Source: Halobacteriovorax marinus SJ
GTDB lineage: Bacteria; Bdellovibrionota; Bacteriovoracia; Bacteriovoracales; Bacteriovoracaceae
DNA length: 64,000 nucleotides
Assembly: GCF_000210915.2 (NCBI RefSeq)
Contig: NC_016620.1
Coordinates: 124,001 to 188,000, forward strand
Direction: 5' to 3'
Positions 42,587 to 63,285 of this stretch are shown piece after piece. Position numbers and translations under genes: made by a program. Positions within the stretch are counted from its first letter, which is position 1. Every line of letters starts with the position of its first letter. The notes under the pieces are model-generated. The model did no database searches, had not been told where the DNA came from, and was given only the letters and a program-made list of their open reading frames with translations.

Positions 42587-42645
42587 GCGTAAGTGGTGCG
42601 TAAGTCAAGAGAAAAATGCGTAAGTTGCGTAAGTTTAAATTACGC
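42587..42645. repeat. Four GCGTAAGT direct repeats plus one inverted copy near recA
   Basis: GCGTAAGT at 42587, 42598, 42618 and 42627 on the plus strand. The last copy also forms an inverted repeat: GCGTAA (42627-42632), seven bases, TTACGC (42640-42645). The array sits between the pgpA stop and the recA promoter region and looks like a cluster of protein-binding sites. Confidence 0.6.
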
Positions 42646-43123
42646 CTAGCGCATTAATGATCAAATAGACAAAACCTGCAAAGAGACCGCTTATGATATC
42701 GTCTAATATCGTACCGGCACCATGGTGTACTTTCTTATCGAAATAGCTTGCTGGCCATATTTTCACGATATCAAAGAATCGAAATAGGGCAAAAATTATT
42801 GTATAATGTAGCACCGAGTGATTCTGGAGAAAGAGCCATGTTGTGGCCACGCCGAGAGATTCATCAATAACTATCCATGAAGGGTCATGTAGTTTATATT
42901 TTCTTTGCGTGAAGTCTGTGACAAAGCAAGCTCCAGCGGTGGAAATTACCAGAAAGGGAATGTATAAGAAAAATGGAGCGCCAAGAGTTCCCAATGCAAA
43001 TAAGAACGGCATGGTGACAAGAGTTCCAAAAGTTCCTGGGGCCCATGGAAAGAATCCCGATCCAAATACTGAAAGGAAGAGGATGTCTATGTTTTTAAGA
43101 CTTGGCTTATTTTTTTCTGACAT
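42635..43123 (-). CDS. pgpA: Phosphatidylglycerophosphatase A
   Basis: 162 residues, the PgpA length, with several membrane helices. The motif GFFPWAPGTFGT (about 18-29), DPSWIVIDESLG near 79-90 with metal-binding acidic residues, and FRFFDIVKIWPA are diagnostic. The C-terminal HHGAGTILDDIISG is intact. It dephosphorylates PGP to phosphatidylglycerol in the inner membrane. It lies upstream of recA on the same strand; its stop codon abuts the GCGTAAGT array. Confidence 0.93.
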   Translation of the reverse strand: MSEKNKPSLKNIDILFLSVFGSGFFPWAPGTFGTLVTMPFLFALGTLGAPFFLYIPFLVISTAGACFVTDFTQRKYKLHDPSWIVIDESLGVATTWLFLQNHSVLHYTIIFALFRFFDIVKIWPASYFDKKVHHGAGTILDDIISGLFAGFVYLIINALGVI

Positions 43124-43166
43124 AGCTTCATGGTATTTTATTTTGTTCTTTAAGGAAATAGATTAA

Positions 43167-48319: not shown

Positions 48320-48631
48320 TTAGTCTTTAAATAGTGAGTTTGCGGCGCTTAGGAGATCATCTTTATTACTTCCACCGCCAGAGTGACCTTTTAAAATGAA
48401 ATAGTCACAAAAGTTAGCCTTTTCCTTATCTACAATTCTATCAGCGCTAGGCTCGCGGCACTCATTATAGGCTGTTGAATCGTAGAATTCACACATTTTA
48501 CAGCAATGCACACTCGCGTAGCAATAGGGGCATTCTTCGCTCCTTAGTACCTTTGCATTTTGTTCAAGGTCTAGACTCTTATTACATGAATGACAATTAA
48601 TCTTGGTCTCTGGCGTCACTAAAAGCTCCAC
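48320..48631 (-). CDS. Small cysteine-rich zinc-ribbon protein
   Basis: 103 residues with two CxxC pairs forming a ribbon (CHSC near 13-16 and CPYC near 34-37) and a second cysteine group (CCKMCEFYD near 43-51, NECREP, ANFCDYF). The block CKMCEFYD..AYNECREPSADRIVDKEKANFCDYF recurs in small hypothetical proteins of several proteobacterial groups, to my knowledge without a known role. It overlaps its upstream neighbour by 13 bases and sits directly before greA. Confidence 0.7.
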   Translation of the reverse strand: MELLVTPETKINCHSCNKSLDLEQNAKVLRSEECPYCYASVHCCKMCEFYDSTAYNECREPSADRIVDKEKANFCDYFILKGHSGGGSNKDDLLSAANSLFKD

Positions 48632-49125
48632 TTCTTTTCTAAATAAACTGTCTTATAGCTATTACTTTTCTTATTGCCTAGTCCTGTTTGATTAAACTCA
48701 ATCTGAGGTAGATTTCTCTTATTATATTCTAGGATTGCGCGGTTCAAATGCCTTTCGTTTGAAGCCTCAAACGTTCTGGCCATTAGAAAATTTACAATAA
48801 TAGAAGTGATACCACCAATGAGTAGTGTTTTCTTATTACTTCCACTGGAGTTTACAAAGAAGCTAGAGATAATCATTGAGGTACCAATCGTTCCAAGGGC
48901 GGCGTTGTGCCACTGCACTTTAGTACCATCTTGATACTTTTCAAGAAATTCCGAGGCCACCTTATCTCTTTCAAGATAATGCCTTAGCCCCTCTCCCTTT
49001 TGAGTTGCATTTGAGTCAATTAAGACTTCTTGTTGATTGATTACGGCTGTTCTAGAGCAGGTTTCTTGTCCATGGGCCGTTGTAGATACAATCAAAAAAA
49101 TAAGCAAAATAGAGACTGTTTTAAT
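48619..49125 (-). CDS. Membrane/secreted protein of unknown function with probable AUU start
   Basis: 168 residues if translation starts at the ATT at 49125-49123. That codon has AGGAG exactly six bases upstream and adds KTVSI, which gives a normal signal peptide (IKTVSILLIFLIVSTTAHG, cleaved near residue 20). A TAG four codons upstream closes the frame, and no ATG or GTG exists. The only ordinary choice, TTG at 49107, has no ribosome site and no basic residue in the signal peptide. The mature part has two more hydrophobic stretches (about 75-115). Family not recognised. First gene of the run that includes greA and recG. Confidence 0.55.
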   Translation of the reverse strand: MKTVSILLIFLIVSTTAHGQETCSRTAVINQQEVLIDSNATQKGEGLRHYLERDKVASEFLEKYQDGTKVQWHNAALGTIGTSMIISSFFVNSSGSNKKTLLIGGITSIIVNFLMARTFEASNERHLNRAILEYNKRNLPQIEFNQTGLGNKKSNSYKTVYLEKKWSF

Positions 49126-49246
49126 CGGTTTCTCCTAATCGTTCGTAAAGTTCCATTCTAACTTACTTTGCACTCTTTTTAAATAGACATTGGTGGGATG
49201 CTTTTGCCGCTTATTTGTGTAGTGTGTAATGAGTTAAGATAAGTAT

Positions 49247-56629: not shown

Positions 56630-56839
56630 ATGGTTAAAGGTAGTGCCGGTCAGGCCCTAATAGAGTATCTAATTCTATTTGCATTCATGTCACTAATTGC
56701 TCTTAATATGGTTAAGGGGATGGGTGGTATGATGTCCGACTCCGTCAGGAGTATTGGATTTCAATTAACACAGCAATTGACTATAGGTGTTTGTGAAGAA
56801 GAGTGTTGGTATTCAGATTATCAAAATAGGACGAAGTAA
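56630..56839 (+). CDS. Flp/TadE-like pseudopilin
   Basis: 69 residues. A short leader MVKGSAG, then QALIEYLILFAFMSLIALNMV, so a prepilin peptidase site after Gly7 with +5 Glu and a single membrane helix. The tail has two cysteines in CEEECWY. Too short to be a TadE; more likely a minor Flp pilin. No clear SD. The stop overlaps the tadV-like start by one base. Confidence 0.75.
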   Translation: MVKGSAGQALIEYLILFAFMSLIALNMVKGMGGMMSDSVRSIGFQLTQQLTIGVCEEECWYSDYQNRTK

Positions 56840-57345
56840 TGCCAATATCAGTCTATCTCTTTCTAGTAGTACAACTCTTCTTTGTCGCTTCTCACGATGT
56901 TACTCACAAGAAAATTTCTAACTTTTGGCCGCTCATAAATATTTCATTCTATTTACTAAGTGTCTTCTTTTTTCCCGACCACTATAATTTTGGATGGAGT
57001 ACATTTGTCTTTCCAATTGCATTCTTTATTGTAGGAATATTTCTATTCACTTTAAAAATTATGGGAGCGGGGGATTCGAAATACTTATTATCTTTTTACT
57101 TGTTGATCCCAGTTTCTCTACATGAGACAGCATTTATCTTTCTCGCTTACTCTACTGTTGTTGTCGGGCTTTCTCTTTTATTAACCAATATAATTAAAAG
57201 ATCTGATATCATTAAATTAGCAATTAAAACTAAGAACTTAAGATTAATAAAAACAATCTTTGGACAAAGGTTTTCATACGCACCAGTTATATTAGTTTCG
57301 TGGTTATGGTTTGGATGGACAATAAGAGCAAAAATATTTTATTAG
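56839..57345 (+). CDS. tadV: Tad prepilin peptidase (TadV/CpaA)
   Basis: 168 residues, an A24 aspartyl peptidase of the short type without the Cys domain of PilD. The two active Asp are in DVTHKKISN (about 20-28) and GAGDSKY (about 75-81), within four to five membrane helices. It would process the Flp and TadE-like precursors around it. The start overlaps the upstream stop (TAATG). The next gene begins inside its 3' end. Confidence 0.9.
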   Translation: MPISVYLFLVVQLFFVASHDVTHKKISNFWPLINISFYLLSVFFFPDHYNFGWSTFVFPIAFFIVGIFLFTLKIMGAGDSKYLLSFYLLIPVSLHETAFIFLAYSTVVVGLSLLLTNIIKRSDIIKLAIKTKNLRLIKTIFGQRFSYAPVILVSWLWFGWTIRAKIFY

Positions 57346-57629
57346 AAGAAAGAGGGCAAAGTGCTGTTGAGTACATAATGTTACTCGCAGTTATAAGCTT
57401 AATTACTTTCTCCATTGTAAACTCTAATAAATTTAAAGATTTTATGGGAGAGGATTCTGGATTCTTTGCAGGCTTAAGGTCTCAGTTGGAGTACTCCTAT
57501 CGCCATGGTTATTTAAATAGTGAAGCTGATCGAAGCGATGATAACTACAGTGGTCCGCATGAGACATACTACGATATTGATGACGGTCGAACACGTTTTT
57601 TTACAGGAGGGGAGCAATATCCACGCTAA
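57315..57629 (+). CDS. Flp-like minor pilin
   Basis: 104 residues from the ATG at 57315, which overlaps tadV by 31 bases; a GTG at 57300 and ATG at 57306 are alternatives. MDNKSKNILLEERG is a typical leader and QSAVEYIMLLAVISLITFSIV the pilin helix, with +5 Glu. The tail is polar and acidic. The frame contains T_TTT_TTT at 57596-57602, ten codons before its stop, followed by AGGAGG, the elements of a -1 frameshift site into the next frame. Confidence 0.8.
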   Translation: MDNKSKNILLEERGQSAVEYIMLLAVISLITFSIVNSNKFKDFMGEDSGFFAGLRSQLEYSYRHGYLNSEADRSDDNYSGPHETYYDIDDGRTRFFTGGEQYPR

Positions 57630-58141
57630 TTAGAAAAGAGGAAGGGCAATCTACGATAGAGTTCTTAATGACTTTCGTATTTTCGTTCGGATTTATTTTT
57701 CTCTTTTATAAAATCTCTATTGATGCAACAAGTGGATTCTACATCCACTATGCCAACTTCATGGCGGCCCGTACATATTTAACGGTAGAGAATAATAGTG
57801 CCAATATTGCAGGTTCCGATGGGTTTGCTTTTCAGCAAGCTCAAAATGTTTTTAATAGTTATAAGCCAGAAGTTATGGTTACTGGCTTTAACGGAGGGAT
57901 CAGTGTCAACGATCCGTCATCCACACCAAATAAACTCTATGTTGGGACTGTGGTTGATTACTCTGTTCCTTTTTCATTTAGTAATTTGATTGGAGGGAGA
58001 GATCCCGTCTTTTATAAATCGGAAACATTTTTGGGAAGAGAGCCAACTCGCTCTGAATGTCTTGCCCGAGTCTGCAAAGTGATGCAGGACTTAGGGGCAG
58101 ATTGTAATACCCATGTAACTTTTTTTGATAATGGCTGTTAA
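57617..58141 (+). CDS. TadE-like pseudopilin without a canonical start codon
   Basis: The frame encodes RKEEG, then QSTIEFLMTFVFSFGFIFLFYKI, the TadE leader and helix, then about 130 residues with C-terminal cysteines. The first ATG (57668) lies inside the helix and would destroy the processing site. Upstream to the TGA at 57581 there is no ATG, GTG, TTG or CTG. Candidate starts are ATA at 57617, six bases after AGGAGG, or ATT at 57629, overlapping the previous stop as TAATT. A -1 shift at 57596-57602 from the previous gene would also enter this frame. 57617 is given as the most upstream plausible start (174 residues). Confidence 0.65.
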   Translation: MSTLIRKEEGQSTIEFLMTFVFSFGFIFLFYKISIDATSGFYIHYANFMAARTYLTVENNSANIAGSDGFAFQQAQNVFNSYKPEVMVTGFNGGISVNDPSSTPNKLYVGTVVDYSVPFSFSNLIGGRDPVFYKSETFLGREPTRSECLARVCKVMQDLGADCNTHVTFFDNGC

Positions 58142-58664
58142 GAAATTAAAGAAGAATATTCTAAGAAATGAAGAGGGGCAGGCAATCTTTGAATTTGTTC
58201 TCTTTCTCCCGTTCATAATTTTTCTCTATACTGTACTTATCAATATAACGAATTCAATCAATGGGTCGATTAATCAGCAAAAGGCCACAAGAGGTTACTT
58301 TTATAGATTGGTTAAACATGATTCAAGAACACCCAATAGAGTTGATATTGAGTTCCTACTTGGAAGTGGAATAAACGTTATGGGCGCTTCAAGTGTGGGG
58401 TGGCGGAGAAAATCCGTCGGAGATACTCAATCATTTGGTACTTGCTATAAATTTATGAATTTCTTTGGAAATGAAACAGACGAAGAGTGTGATGAGAGTA
58501 GAATTGGAGAAGTAACTTCCAACTTTATAAAGCTATTTACATTCTATGGTGTCTGCGGAGAAACCTATATGAAATCCACTTCTGGCTACGTCGAAGGAAC
58601 TAATTTCCTCAGGTATGGTAGCTTTGCTGATCAGCTCGGATATGATCAGTGTGTCCAAAAATAA
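58131..58664 (+). CDS. TadE/TadF-like pseudopilin
   Basis: 177 residues from the ATG at 58131, which overlaps the previous gene by 11 bases. Leader MAVKKLKKNILRNEEG, cleavage after Gly16, then QAIFEFVLFLPFIIFLYTVL with +5 Glu. The periplasmic part has several cysteines (about 108, 122, 147 and C-terminal) that may form disulfides. It is the last of five pilin-like genes; a 90-base gap then leads to cpaB. Confidence 0.8.
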   Translation: MAVKKLKKNILRNEEGQAIFEFVLFLPFIIFLYTVLINITNSINGSINQQKATRGYFYRLVKHDSRTPNRVDIEFLLGSGINVMGASSVGWRRKSVGDTQSFGTCYKFMNFFGNETDEECDESRIGEVTSNFIKLFTFYGVCGETYMKSTSGYVEGTNFLRYGSFADQLGYDQCVQK

Positions 58665-58754: not shown

Positions 58755-59570
58755 ATGAACACTAGAGCACTCACATTGGCCTTGATTATTGCAGTCTTTG
58801 CAATGTTCATGGTTTATACGTATATCGATGATGAAAAAACTAAAATCATAAAGAAGTATGGTAAAGAGCAGTCAGTTGTCATTGCTAAAGTTGATATCAA
58901 AGAACTTGAACTCATTGATGATTCAAAAGTAACTGTTACATCAATGCCTTCAAACTTTGTTCACGAGAAAGCATTTAAAACAATTAAGGAAATTCAAAAC
59001 ACTGTTGCAACAGTTCCTATTCTTAAGGGCGAGCAAATTACCAAGCCAAGAGTTAGTTGGCCGGATGAGAGAAGTGGTCTTTCAAGACAGGTTGCTGTAG
59101 GGAAGAGAGCAATCTCTTTAGACGTATCTGAAAGAGCTTCAGTTGGTAAATTGATTAAGCCCGGAGATAGGGTAGATATTCTGGCGGGAATTGACTATGC
59201 AGGTGGTAGAAAAGATTTACAGAAAATGAAGACGATACTTCAAGATGTTCTTATTCTTTCAACGGGTAAGAGTATTTCTGGAAACCTTCCTATTATTGGT
59301 GTTAAGACACCAAGAGTAATTAAGAAAATGAAGCTTAATACATATAGTGACTATGGAACGGTAACACTTGAGTTAGATCCATATGAAGTACAGAAGCTAG
59401 TTTTTATTCTTAGTTATAATTCTGGTACTCCACCATATCTAGCACTAAGAAATAATACGGATAAAGAAGTTGTTCGAATTAAGTCGACTAAACTCTTCGA
59501 TATCCTTGGAGAGGATGCGTCTGAGGCAAAGATATTCTTCTCTGAAAAATACAAGAGTCAAGGCAACTAA
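58755..59570 (+). CDS. cpaB: Flp pilus assembly protein CpaB/RcpC
   Basis: 271 residues: N-terminal membrane helix (about 6-24), SAF domain (about 40-105, VVIAKVDIKELELIDDSKVTV) and the RcpC/CpaB domain (about 110-240, VAVGKRAISLDVSERASVGKLIKPGDRVDIL). It works in the periplasm with the secretin and may modify or gate the channel. It is coupled to cpaC by a TAATG overlap. Confidence 0.92.
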   Translation: MNTRALTLALIIAVFAMFMVYTYIDDEKTKIIKKYGKEQSVVIAKVDIKELELIDDSKVTVTSMPSNFVHEKAFKTIKEIQNTVATVPILKGEQITKPRVSWPDERSGLSRQVAVGKRAISLDVSERASVGKLIKPGDRVDILAGIDYAGGRKDLQKMKTILQDVLILSTGKSISGNLPIIGVKTPRVIKKMKLNTYSDYGTVTLELDPYEVQKLVFILSYNSGTPPYLALRNNTDKEVVRIKSTKLFDILGEDASEAKIFFSEKYKSQGN

Positions 59571-61051
59571 TGAGACTTGTTAAAACTTTTTTAATATTCA
59601 TTTATACCATTTCGATCTTTGCTCAGCAGGGAAAGAATGTTCCTGAGAAAAAAGTTGAAGTTGTTCTAGGTATAGACCATGTAGAGAAACTCGATTTTGC
59701 ACCTTCTACAAAAGTGCAAGTTGGTAATGATACCATTTTAAATCACGTAATTATTCCACAAAAAAGAGAGATCACATTTAAAGGTCTTAAACCGGGACAG
59801 ACATCTGTAATGGTAAGAAATACTGTTGGAGATATTAAGGCCAAGTTCTTAGTAAATATCACTGCAACTGACCAATCTAAGGTTGTTCAAGAGTTAAAAG
59901 AATTTCTTGGTGATGTTGAAGGTCTGGAAATTGGTATCAAGGGTAATAAGGTCTACGTAGGTGGAGAGATTGTTGTCCCATCAGATATTGGTAGGGTGAT
60001 CGTTGTTCTTGGTGGGTATCCAGACGTTGTACAATTAGTAGAACTCTCTCCTCAGACCCAGAGAGTTATCGCTCGTAATATGCAAAAAGAAATTCAAAAA
60101 AGTAATATGCCAGATGTAACGGTAAGGGTTGCGAATGGACTCTTTATGCTTGAAGGTGTTGTTAGTTCTGATGTGGATAAGACTAGGGCCGAGCAAATCG
60201 CTGCTGTCTATGTTCCTGACATGATTCAAAACCTTGCGAGACGAACTGAAGCGGTAAAGGCGGCGGAGAAAGATATTATTCAAAACTTTATTAGTGTAAA
60301 TGCGAAGAAGAAGCCTGCGCCAATTCCAAAGATGATAAAAATCTCTGCCCAATTTGTTGAGCTTACAAAAGATTATAATAAAATTTTTGGGTTTAAGTGG
60401 GAGCCAGTTCTCGGTGGAGGCGGTGGTACTATAAATATTGGTAAGGGCGCCGATGGTGGTGTGACATCTTCATCTAGTGGAACCCTTGCTGGAACCATTT
60501 CAAATCTCTTTCCAAAGTTAGCATCAGCTAAGAGTGCCGGTTATGCGAGAGTTATTCAATCTGGTGTCATTATAACTAAAGATAAGATAGCGAGTAAGAT
60601 CGTTAAGAGAAGTGAGAAGCCTTTTGCAATTGGTACTGGAGAGTTTGTTAGAACTGAGAAAGCAACTGCTGGGTTTGATCTCTCTATCACTCCTACAATT
60701 TTGCCACAAGAGAAAGTTGACTTGAGTATGGGACTAACCGTCAGTGCAAACGTAGGTGATCCTCCAGAGACAACATCTAATACTATTCAAACTGCATTAG
60801 TTGTTAAAAGTAAGGAGAGTGCTGTTGTTGGTGGTGTTGTTGTAAATAAATCTTCAACAGATTTTGACAGAAACCCACCGGGTGGAGTTGATGAAGTAGA
60901 AGATGGAAGTAAATTATTTTCTTTTGTGAAGTCGAAGGCATATTTAACGAATAAGTCTCAGTTTGTTGTTTTCGTAACACCTGAGATTATCGAATCAGCT
61001 TCGACAGGAACTGAAGAGATAAAAAGAAAATTTAGAAGTAGAAGGCGATAA
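59570..61051 (+). CDS. cpaC: Tad pilus secretin CpaC/RcpA
   Basis: 493 residues: signal peptide (about 1-18, ending FAQQ), pilus-formation N-terminal domain (about 28-105), two BON-like segments (about 110-215, GLEIGIKGNKVYVGGEIV and NMPDVTVRVANGLFMLEGVV) and the secretin core (about 250-480) with FGFKWEPVLGGGG, VIQSGVIITKD and VVGGVV. It forms the outer-membrane channel for the Flp pilus, distinct from PilQ. TAATG overlaps on both sides bind it to cpaB and the ATPase gene. Confidence 0.93.
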   Translation: MRLVKTFLIFIYTISIFAQQGKNVPEKKVEVVLGIDHVEKLDFAPSTKVQVGNDTILNHVIIPQKREITFKGLKPGQTSVMVRNTVGDIKAKFLVNITATDQSKVVQELKEFLGDVEGLEIGIKGNKVYVGGEIVVPSDIGRVIVVLGGYPDVVQLVELSPQTQRVIARNMQKEIQKSNMPDVTVRVANGLFMLEGVVSSDVDKTRAEQIAAVYVPDMIQNLARRTEAVKAAEKDIIQNFISVNAKKKPAPIPKMIKISAQFVELTKDYNKIFGFKWEPVLGGGGGTINIGKGADGGVTSSSSGTLAGTISNLFPKLASAKSAGYARVIQSGVIITKDKIASKIVKRSEKPFAIGTGEFVRTEKATAGFDLSITPTILPQEKVDLSMGLTVSANVGDPPETTSNTIQTALVVKSKESAVVGGVVVNKSSTDFDRNPPGGVDEVEDGSKLFSFVKSKAYLTNKSQFVVFVTPEIIESASTGTEEIKRKFRSRRR

Positions 61052-63285
61052 TGGCTGGTCATATAATTACAATTATTGGTGGAAAAGGCGGGCAAGGGAA
61101 ATCCCAAGTTGCTGCAAACTTGGCATTTGCTTATGCTGTTGAGTCGCGCCAAAAAGTAATGCTATTAGATTTTGATAAGAATGCTAGTGGTGATCAAAAC
61201 TTTATTACAGGTATAAAGTCGAAGAAAACAGTAAAGGACTTATCAGAGTTTTCTGGTGCCATTGATCCACGCTCTATTATGCAGTTCTTAACACCACATC
61301 CCGCAGGTGTAAATTATATTGGAATGCCTTCTGATCCAACTGCAAGTAATAGTATTAATGCTGATGGACTGGGTAAAACTCTTAAGGCCATTACAAATAT
61401 CTTTCCCTTAACAATTATTGATGCTGGAAGCGAGATGAATGATCTTGCGGCTAAGGCCCTTGAGTTTTCGACAATGATTTTTCTCGTCGTTACTCCAGAT
61501 ATTCTCGCTCTCAATCAGACGAAGAGATTATACTCTGATCTTGTAACGATGATGTTTCCAAAAGATATGATGCAAGTTCTACTGAATCAGCATCAAAAAG
61601 GGCACCCTGTAACACCTGAAGTTGTAGGCAAAGCAATGGGGAAGCCTGTTTTTGCGACTATCCCAAAAGATGATCAAACTTGTGTGATGGCACTAAACCA
61701 GAAGAAGCCAGTAATGGTTATTGCAAAGAAGAGTAACTTTGCTAAAGGTATTACAGAGTGTGCCAGAAAAATTATTCAAAAAAATATTTTAAAATCACTC
61801 GCAAAACTTAATAAACCTACAGATGTTGGGGCTAAGGCCGATTCTGGCGCTCCAATGGATGGGAAGACGAAGAGTGCTTGGACAGAATTAAAATCAAGAA
61901 TTCATAAGGCCCTTGTTGATGAAATGGACTTAAAGAATTCAGACGACAATGATCCAAAAGCGGCCATCATTATGCGTGAGCAAACTAAGAAGATGGTTGT
62001 TGAACTTCTCGGCAAGGAAGACACTAAGAGTGTTTTCCAAACAAGAGAAGATATGAATAGAATCGTTAAGGAGATTTTGGATGAGGCCCTTGGACTTGGT
62101 CCTCTGGAAGATCTACTTGCCGATAAAGAATGTTCAGAGATTATGGTCGTAGGCCCTGATAAAATATTCTATGAAAAAAGTGGTAAGGTTAAAAAATCAG
62201 ATATTACTTTCACTAATGATCGTCAGGTTCTCAATGTAATTGAAAGAATCGTTGCACCTATCGGAAGAAGGATTGATGAGAAGACTCCATACGTAGATGC
62301 TAGACTTAAAGATGGCTCCAGAGTTCACGCCATCATTCCACCTTCGGCCTTAGATGGTTGCTGTATTACAATTCGAAAATTTCCTGAAGAGGTTGTGACT
62401 TATAAAGACTATATAAAGTGGGGATCTCTCACGCAGAATATGGCCGACTTTCTTAGGATTGCAGTTGAAGGGCATAGAAATATTGTTGTTAGTGGTGGTA
62501 CTGGTTCAGGTAAGACAACTCTAATTAATATTCTTGGAGGATTTATTCCTGCCAATGAACGTATCATTACTTGTGAGGACTCTGCTGAACTTAACTTTCC
62601 ACAAGATCACGTCGTTCGTCTTGAAACGAGACCACCTTCGCTAGAGGGTGATGGGGAAATTGATATTCGTTGTCTGGTTAAACAAACACTAAGAATGAGA
62701 CCTGAAAGAATCGTTGTTGGAGAGTGTCGTGGTGGTGAAACCCTGGATATGCTTCAGGCAATGGGGACAGGTCACGATGGATCGATGACAACAGTTCACT
62801 CTAATAATCCGAGAGAGTGTATTGGTCGTCTTGAGACATTAGTTCAATATGCAGGTGCCGGTTTAAGTCCAAAAGCAATTAGAGAGATGATCGCAAACTC
62901 TGTACATATGATTATTCAGCAAAAACGTCTGGATGATGGTTCTAGAAAGATGACTCATATTTCAGAGATTGGTGGTATTCAAGGTGATGTTGTCACACTT
63001 CAAGATATCTTTCTCTTCCAACAAAGAGATATTGATAAGAATGGTAAAATAATAGGTGAGTTTCAGGCCACAGGGTTTATTCCTAAGTTTATCGAAATTC
63101 TAGAGCGTAAAGGTTACAACGTTCCTCGTGGTCTCTTTAGTAATAGTGCCGGCGGTAGTGGAGGCGGTAGTACTCCTCCTCCTGCGAGTGGAGGCTCTAA
63201 AGCACCTGGTGGTGGCGATGCTAAGCCTAGGCCAAAACAGAGGCCTAATGGACAAAATAGACCTGTAAAGAAGAGGCCTAGTTAA
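61051..63285 (+). CDS. CpaE (TadZ)-CpaF (TadA) fusion: ParA-like localiser joined to pilus ATPase
   Basis: 744 residues. The N-terminal 245 are a MinD/ParA-type ATPase of the CpaE/TadZ class (deviant Walker A GGKGGQGKS at 10-18, LLDFDKNASGDQNFI, IDAGSEMND). After a linker (about 250-275) comes a full CpaF ATPase (about 276-690): GPLEDLLADKECSEIMV, Walker A SGGTGSGKTT near 480, CEDSAEL, RMRPERIVVGE and TVHSNNPRE. The C-terminal 45 residues are Gly/Pro/Lys-rich. In most bacteria the two functions are separate genes. No stop or ribosome site breaks the frame between them. TAATG overlaps with cpaC and tadB place it in the operon. Confidence 0.93.
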   Translation: MAGHIITIIGGKGGQGKSQVAANLAFAYAVESRQKVMLLDFDKNASGDQNFITGIKSKKTVKDLSEFSGAIDPRSIMQFLTPHPAGVNYIGMPSDPTASNSINADGLGKTLKAITNIFPLTIIDAGSEMNDLAAKALEFSTMIFLVVTPDILALNQTKRLYSDLVTMMFPKDMMQVLLNQHQKGHPVTPEVVGKAMGKPVFATIPKDDQTCVMALNQKKPVMVIAKKSNFAKGITECARKIIQKNILKSLAKLNKPTDVGAKADSGAPMDGKTKSAWTELKSRIHKALVDEMDLKNSDDNDPKAAIIMREQTKKMVVELLGKEDTKSVFQTREDMNRIVKEILDEALGLGPLEDLLADKECSEIMVVGPDKIFYEKSGKVKKSDITFTNDRQVLNVIERIVAPIGRRIDEKTPYVDARLKDGSRVHAIIPPSALDGCCITIRKFPEEVVTYKDYIKWGSLTQNMADFLRIAVEGHRNIVVSGGTGSGKTTLINILGGFIPANERIITCEDSAELNFPQDHVVRLETRPPSLEGDGEIDIRCLVKQTLRMRPERIVVGECRGGETLDMLQAMGTGHDGSMTTVHSNNPRECIGRLETLVQYAGAGLSPKAIREMIANSVHMIIQQKRLDDGSRKMTHISEIGGIQGDVVTLQDIFLFQQRDIDKNGKIIGEFQATGFIPKFIEILERKGYNVPRGLFSNSAGGSGGGSTPPPASGGSKAPGGGDAKPRPKQRPNGQNRPVKKRPS

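Follow-up and report, generated by a model that had tools for sequence, protein, structure and literature searches.

A TadE-like minor prepilin gene without an ordinary start codon in Halobacteriovorax marinus SJ probably starts at AUA

We found that a TadE-like minor prepilin gene in the Tad pilus locus of Halobacteriovorax marinus SJ has no ordinary start codon. Our analysis points to an AUA codon (57617) behind a strong Shine-Dalgarno sequence as the probable start, with likely help from coupling to the overlapping pilin gene. The gene lies in the window, the 64,000-nucleotide stretch of DNA that was analyzed, which belongs to a genome of 3.44 Mb in two contigs. Coordinates are positions in the window and are collected in Table 1.

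This part of the genome is a Tad pilus locus, with a prepilin peptidase-like gene, pilin genes, the TadE-like gene, a further prepilin-like gene, and genes for RcpC/CpaB, a secretin, and a T2SSE ATPase. The available part of a published account of H. marinus SJ describes three Tad-associated flp genes and TadV (PMC5430801). The final 13 bases of the upstream pilin gene are shared with the proposed TadE-like gene. Pilins throughout the family, including that of the window (57300-57629), carry a C-terminal motif, R/H-F-F...Y-P, just ahead of the stop. This motif constrains the overlapping start region of the TadE-like gene.

Table 1. Features of the Tad pilus locus and of another gene for which a non-canonical start is proposed. 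A slash marks a processing site.
Feature	Coordinates	Strand	Remarks
Prepilin peptidase-like gene	56839..57345	+	Peptidase_A24, 24.4 bits, under the 26.5 cut-off
Upstream Tad-locus pilin gene	57315..57629	+	M-D-N-K start; G/QSAVEY; C-terminal RFF...YP motif
T_TTT_TTT run	57596..57602	+	Encodes Phe-Phe within the pilin's conserved RFF motif
Shine-Dalgarno (AGGAGG) ahead of the TadE-like gene	57605..57610	+	Duplex energy -11.4 kcal/mol
ATA, proposed start codon	57617..57619	+	Identical in 5/5 genus members
Rival start, an ATT that overlaps the pilin stop (TAATT)	57629..57631	+	ATT in 3/5 genus members
TadE-like minor prepilin gene	57617..58141	+	174 aa counted from AUA
First in-frame ATG, within the hydrophobic helix	57668..57670	+	Rejected as sole start
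Next prepilin-like gene	58131..58664	+	ATG start; EEG/QAIFEF
Tad pilus genes (RcpC/CpaB-like, secretin, T2SSE ATPase)	58755..63285	+	
Further gene with proposed AUU start, exported protein	48619..49125 from ATT (region 48619-49134)	-	

The protein is TadE-like by its position, processing site, and helix. Processing would fall between 57646 and 57647 (EEG/QSTIEF), and GQSTIEF, which we take to be a type IVb prepilin processing site, is invariant in the five genus members. A weak AlphaFold model (pLDDT 64.7) has a helix at 13-51. Thus, the features of a minor prepilin are present: a type IVb processing site with a hydrophobic helix after it, in a Tad locus with RcpC, secretin, and T2SSE genes adjoining. 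The window protein did not match the Pfam TadE family (PF07811), which was matched by one of the nine members of A2 (E 0.027). Neither the upstream pilin nor the TadE-like protein received a name above the cut-off from Pfam and NCBIfam, and a fold search with the weak AlphaFold model returned no match at E 0.001 or below.

The initial annotation had claimed that no ATG, GTG, TTG, or CTG precedes the TadE processing site, and both direct and frame reading confirmed this. A TGA lies at 57581-57583, the TadE-like frame is open over 57584-58138, none of the four codons occurs in it from that TGA to the G/Q site (GGG at 57644), and its earliest ATG is at 57668. The codons up to the GGG are CGG TCG AAC ACG TTT TTT TAC AGG AGG GGA GCA ATA TCC ACG CTA ATT AGA AAA GAG GAA, and the pilin frame ends in CGT TTT TTT ACA GGA GGG GAG CAA TAT CCA CGC TAA (stop 57627-57629). 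The positions given earlier for the T run, the AGGAGG, the ATA six bases beyond it, and the ATT that overlaps the TAA were also correct; the T run is in phase with the pilin, and a -1 shift there would enter the TadE-like frame. We compared the window with four relatives, G001 to G004 (L004, L005, L003, and L002), so that the comparison covers five genomes from a single genus. Relative to the window, protein identity was 84% for L002, 81% for L003, 71% for L004, and 68% for L005. Alignment of these orthologs showed that the other four members also have no usual start up to the upstream stop. An indel in the T run as the source of the gap was not borne out, as five separate genomes agree.

We then compared the near-cognate codons ATT, ATA, ATC, CTG, and ACG across the genus. 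The only one found in all five members was the ATA at codon -9 (57617), and it has a well-placed Shine-Dalgarno sequence. The CAGGAG upstream of this ATA is invariant in the five, forming AGGAGG in three and the weaker AGGAGC in two, and the duplex energies of the ATA site with the anti-Shine-Dalgarno sequence were -11.4, -11.1, -10.3, -7.2, and -6.8. That of the window is third among the window's 58 genes (median of the other 57, -4.8). The corresponding site in 99 other pilins of the family had a median energy of -3.3. ATA stands at that site in 32 of these 99 relatives, which have other starts, and the strongest of the 32 was -5.8. The 93 relatives with ATG had a median of -3.7 at the chosen ATG, with one reaching -10. 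The genus site is therefore stronger than that of most relatives with ATG, so that a weak codon is paired with a stronger Shine-Dalgarno sequence.

The proposed AUA start type occurs in all five genus members and is absent outside the genus. However, the ATA and part of the AGGAGG also encode pilin residues (Q-Y-P and G-G), and thus their conservation is not independent. Within the window, AGGAG-N5-8-ATA was not above chance (10 found versus 12.0 expected). Given this dual coding, the ATA in 32 of 99 relatives, and the chance-level motif, the case for AUA is one of conjunction: there is no other start, the site is strong, and conservation is fivefold.

We propose that the ordinary initiator tRNA would start the TadE-like gene at AUA 57617. 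The AGGAGG six bases upstream, within the 3' end of the pilin gene, would place the ribosome there. Since the AUA precedes the pilin stop by 10 bases, ribosomes finishing the pilin would probably help through coupling. All 36 tRNAs that we found could be typed, and one is an initiator-type CAU tRNA (L189, assigned by eye). Because this initiator tRNA looks ordinary, weak third-position pairing at the AUA, as for the AUU of infC, would be the expected mechanism. An odd initiator tRNA was also considered and was rejected; there is no UAU anticodon among the 36. We infer from the sequence that the AUA is actually used. It may give little protein, which would fit a minor pilin beside an abundant pilin, and IF3 may tune it.

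The family search found the TadE-like gene in 120 of 129 genomes, and we took a census of starts at 122 distinct family loci. The usual place for a start was defined as after the pilin RFF motif or, if no pilin was recognized, before the processing site. A start was in the usual place at 104 loci (ATG at 94 and GTG or TTG at 10), an ordinary codon was found only farther upstream, within the pilin, at 11, and no start at all was found at 7, these being the five genus members plus L007 and L020. Outside the genus, only 2 of 117 loci are without a start all the way to the upstream stop. The five genus members form a single clade in the tree (support, 100/100).

A family-wide lack of starts was considered and dropped. 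The 11 loci with upstream codons only have an ordinary codon inside the pilin, several with a Shine-Dalgarno sequence: ATG -31 at -9.0 in L006 and L044, ATG -26 at -9.5 in L010, and ATG -32 at -10.5 in L013. We do not claim non-canonical starts for these 11 loci as a class. L006 additionally has TAATG at the pilin stop, with the ATG one base out of the TadE frame beside an A run, which may reflect slippage or an error in the assembly. We also observed a CTG shortly before the processing site of the TadE-like protein in L097 and L028 (both of genus g9) and in L007 (genus g20), with energies of -11.5, -7.4, and -7.5, respectively, and no local ATG, GTG, or TTG. These three are candidates for CUG starts of the TadE-like gene in other genera.

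Other explanations were weighed against a start at AUA. The ATG at 57668 is the earliest ordinary start codon of the frame, but a product begun there would be without the processing site, and strong selection acts on the codons preceding it. Between the G codon and this ATG, both included, the five genus sequences have 44 synonymous and 0 nonsynonymous pairwise codon differences. There are no stops over this span in the TadE-like frame and 12 and 2 in the other frames, and the shifted frames have mostly nonsynonymous changes. The 44 synonymous versus 0 nonsynonymous differences indicate that the frame is translated ahead of ATG 57668, and we find an internal start scarcely credible. The four codons preceding the G have 8 synonymous and 21 nonsynonymous differences, mostly K/R or E/D. 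Codons -9 to -5 carry no coding signal (2 synonymous and 21 nonsynonymous), so that this test does not pin down the exact start. A homopolymer nearby would allow for a normal start hidden by a sequencing or assembly error. However, five assemblies agree, the other four at 68 to 84% protein identity to the window, which leaves such an error with next to no probability. A different possibility is termination-reinitiation, in which a ribosome ending at TAA 57627 would restart at AUU 57629 (TAATT, a changed TAATG) or at the nearest codon, with codon identity mattering little. The ATT overlaps the pilin stop, and relatives overlap near the same place: L009 has CAATGA, with the ATG overlapping the stop, and the more distant L063 has TAT CCG TGA, with a GTG overlapping the stop, where L002 has TAT CCG TAA. 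A change from CCGTGA to CCGTAA would turn GTG into GTA, and a TGA-to-TAA change of this kind may have removed a GTG start at the origin of the arrangement. However, the ATT at -5 is found in only three of the five genus members (L002 has CTT and L004 has ACT), and the Shine-Dalgarno sequence is 18 bases from ATT 57629 and would stay unexplained. We therefore regard reinitiation as unlikely, though less so than the other alternatives.

A programmed -1 frameshift at T_TTT_TTT, also raised in the initial annotation, would produce a pilin-TadE fusion. In its favor, the window has the heptamer in phase, with the TadE-like frame open from that point. However, the heptamer varies within the genus (T_TTT_TTT, C_TTT_TTT, A_TTT_TTC, A_TTT_TTT, and T_TTT_TTC), only two of the five members carry T at all three X positions of X_XXY_YYZ, and we found no conserved slippery heptamer among the five. 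Among 90 relatives with ordinary starts, TTT-TTT occurs in 46 and the full T_TTT_TTT in 11, a frequency that fits codon use for the conserved Phe-Phe. The 88 bases after the run showed no stimulatory fold relative to shuffles (z 0.60, -0.05, and 0.42 in three species, for folds without pseudoknots), and the fold z of a 101-base span across the run was -0.70. The purine-rich site comes after the T run, not ahead of it. Moreover, in a fusion the TadE processing site would come after the pilin membrane helix and so face the wrong side of the membrane for the prepilin peptidase. A frameshift is therefore very unlikely. Thus, of the mechanisms put forward at the outset, AUA 57617 gained from its conservation and the strength of its Shine-Dalgarno sequence, while the slippery site and AUU 57629 both lost ground.

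The initial annotation had also suggested AUU use at a second gene, and this was supported by its sequence arrangement and by comparison with relatives. On the minus strand, AGGAGA (49136-49131) precedes ATT (49125-49123), and a signal-peptide-like N terminus follows. The ATT is present in four of the five genus members, including G001, G003, and G004; G002 has TTG-ATA. The frame opens at CCG directly ahead of the ATT in G003, and CTG is directly ahead of it in G004. Outside the genus, seven relatives read by eye have one of the codons TTG, GTG, and ATG close to the signal peptide. These observations support a predicted AUU start for the 49125 gene. The infC gene has GGAGG, six bases, and then ATT in all five genus members, with no ATG, GTG, or TTG between the frame opening and the ATT or soon after in any of them. 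We scanned for a conserved near-cognate codon with a Shine-Dalgarno sequence, using two relatives. It flagged five places in the 58 conserved open reading frames (ORFs) of the window, and the TadE-like and 49125 genes alone had no canonical codon upstream. Applied to 118 kb nearby, the scan gave no flags among 81 ORFs. At 2 of 139 ORFs, AUA/AUU-type starts are rare here. Separately, reading the table by eye, we observed that a gene at 42635-43162 (minus strand), presumably PgpA-like, has a conserved in-frame stretch ahead of its ATG without a canonical start in five genomes; anchoring in that table was faulty for some genes.

AUA and AUU starts with a strong Shine-Dalgarno sequence are already known; the proposed AUA start would add to them a pilus gene from a predatory bacterium. 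We found no report of an AUA start of the TadE-like gene in Halobacteriovorax in the literature searched, with most subscription papers outside its scope. In Staphylococcus aureus, the available portion of one study describes AUA starts for ccpN, citZ, and infC and an AUU start for cvfC1; with an extended Shine-Dalgarno sequence these give about 10% of AUG output, and the AUA of ccpN up to 30% in rich medium (PMC13009471). The ccpN, infC, and cvfC1 genes resemble the TadE-like gene in having AUA or AUU, a strong Shine-Dalgarno sequence, and a start type conserved among relatives. The S. aureus starts were, according to that portion, mapped by ribosome profiling and reporters, whereas the TadE-like start is predicted from sequence (PMC13009471). 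The TadE-like gene also differs in encoding a minor pilin, in having its site inside the preceding gene, and in belonging to another phylum.

As far as the accessible text of a second paper goes, the AUU start of infC and IF3 autoregulation are known, and the GTC start of Streptomyces sigR has been shown experimentally to be repressed by IF3 (PMC5472188). The infC AUU has the same Shine-Dalgarno gap as the TadE-like gene, although infC encodes IF3 itself. In sigR, a conserved start of non-canonical type determines the relative amounts of two co-encoded proteins, as may also be the case for the TadE-like gene; sigR differs in its GTC start and in encoding a sigma factor (PMC5472188). The TadE/TadF/TadG minor pilins, for example at the Kil tips of Myxococcus in the accessible part of that report, likewise place a prepilin-type protein in a predator Tad locus (PMC12075869). 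Unlike these, the window protein does not match Pfam TadE, and its role at a pilus tip is conjectural. It is conceivable, but quite improbable, that the AUA and AUU starts of the genus form a small IF3-tuned set (IF3, the pilus-tip protein, and the exported 49125 protein) that would link pilus assembly to the attack/growth switch via the level of the initiation factor.

Gene finders mostly accept ATG, GTG, and TTG only, and therefore truncate or overlook genes of this kind. Shortening the TadE-like gene to an ordinary start would strip the processing signal from a pilus protein. An output reduction like that in S. aureus would suit a minor pilin made beside the pilin. The genus-conserved start type, together with the AUU gene and the AUU of infC, offers a clean natural case in which codon, Shine-Dalgarno sequence, and IF3 can be set against the yield of a minor pilin.
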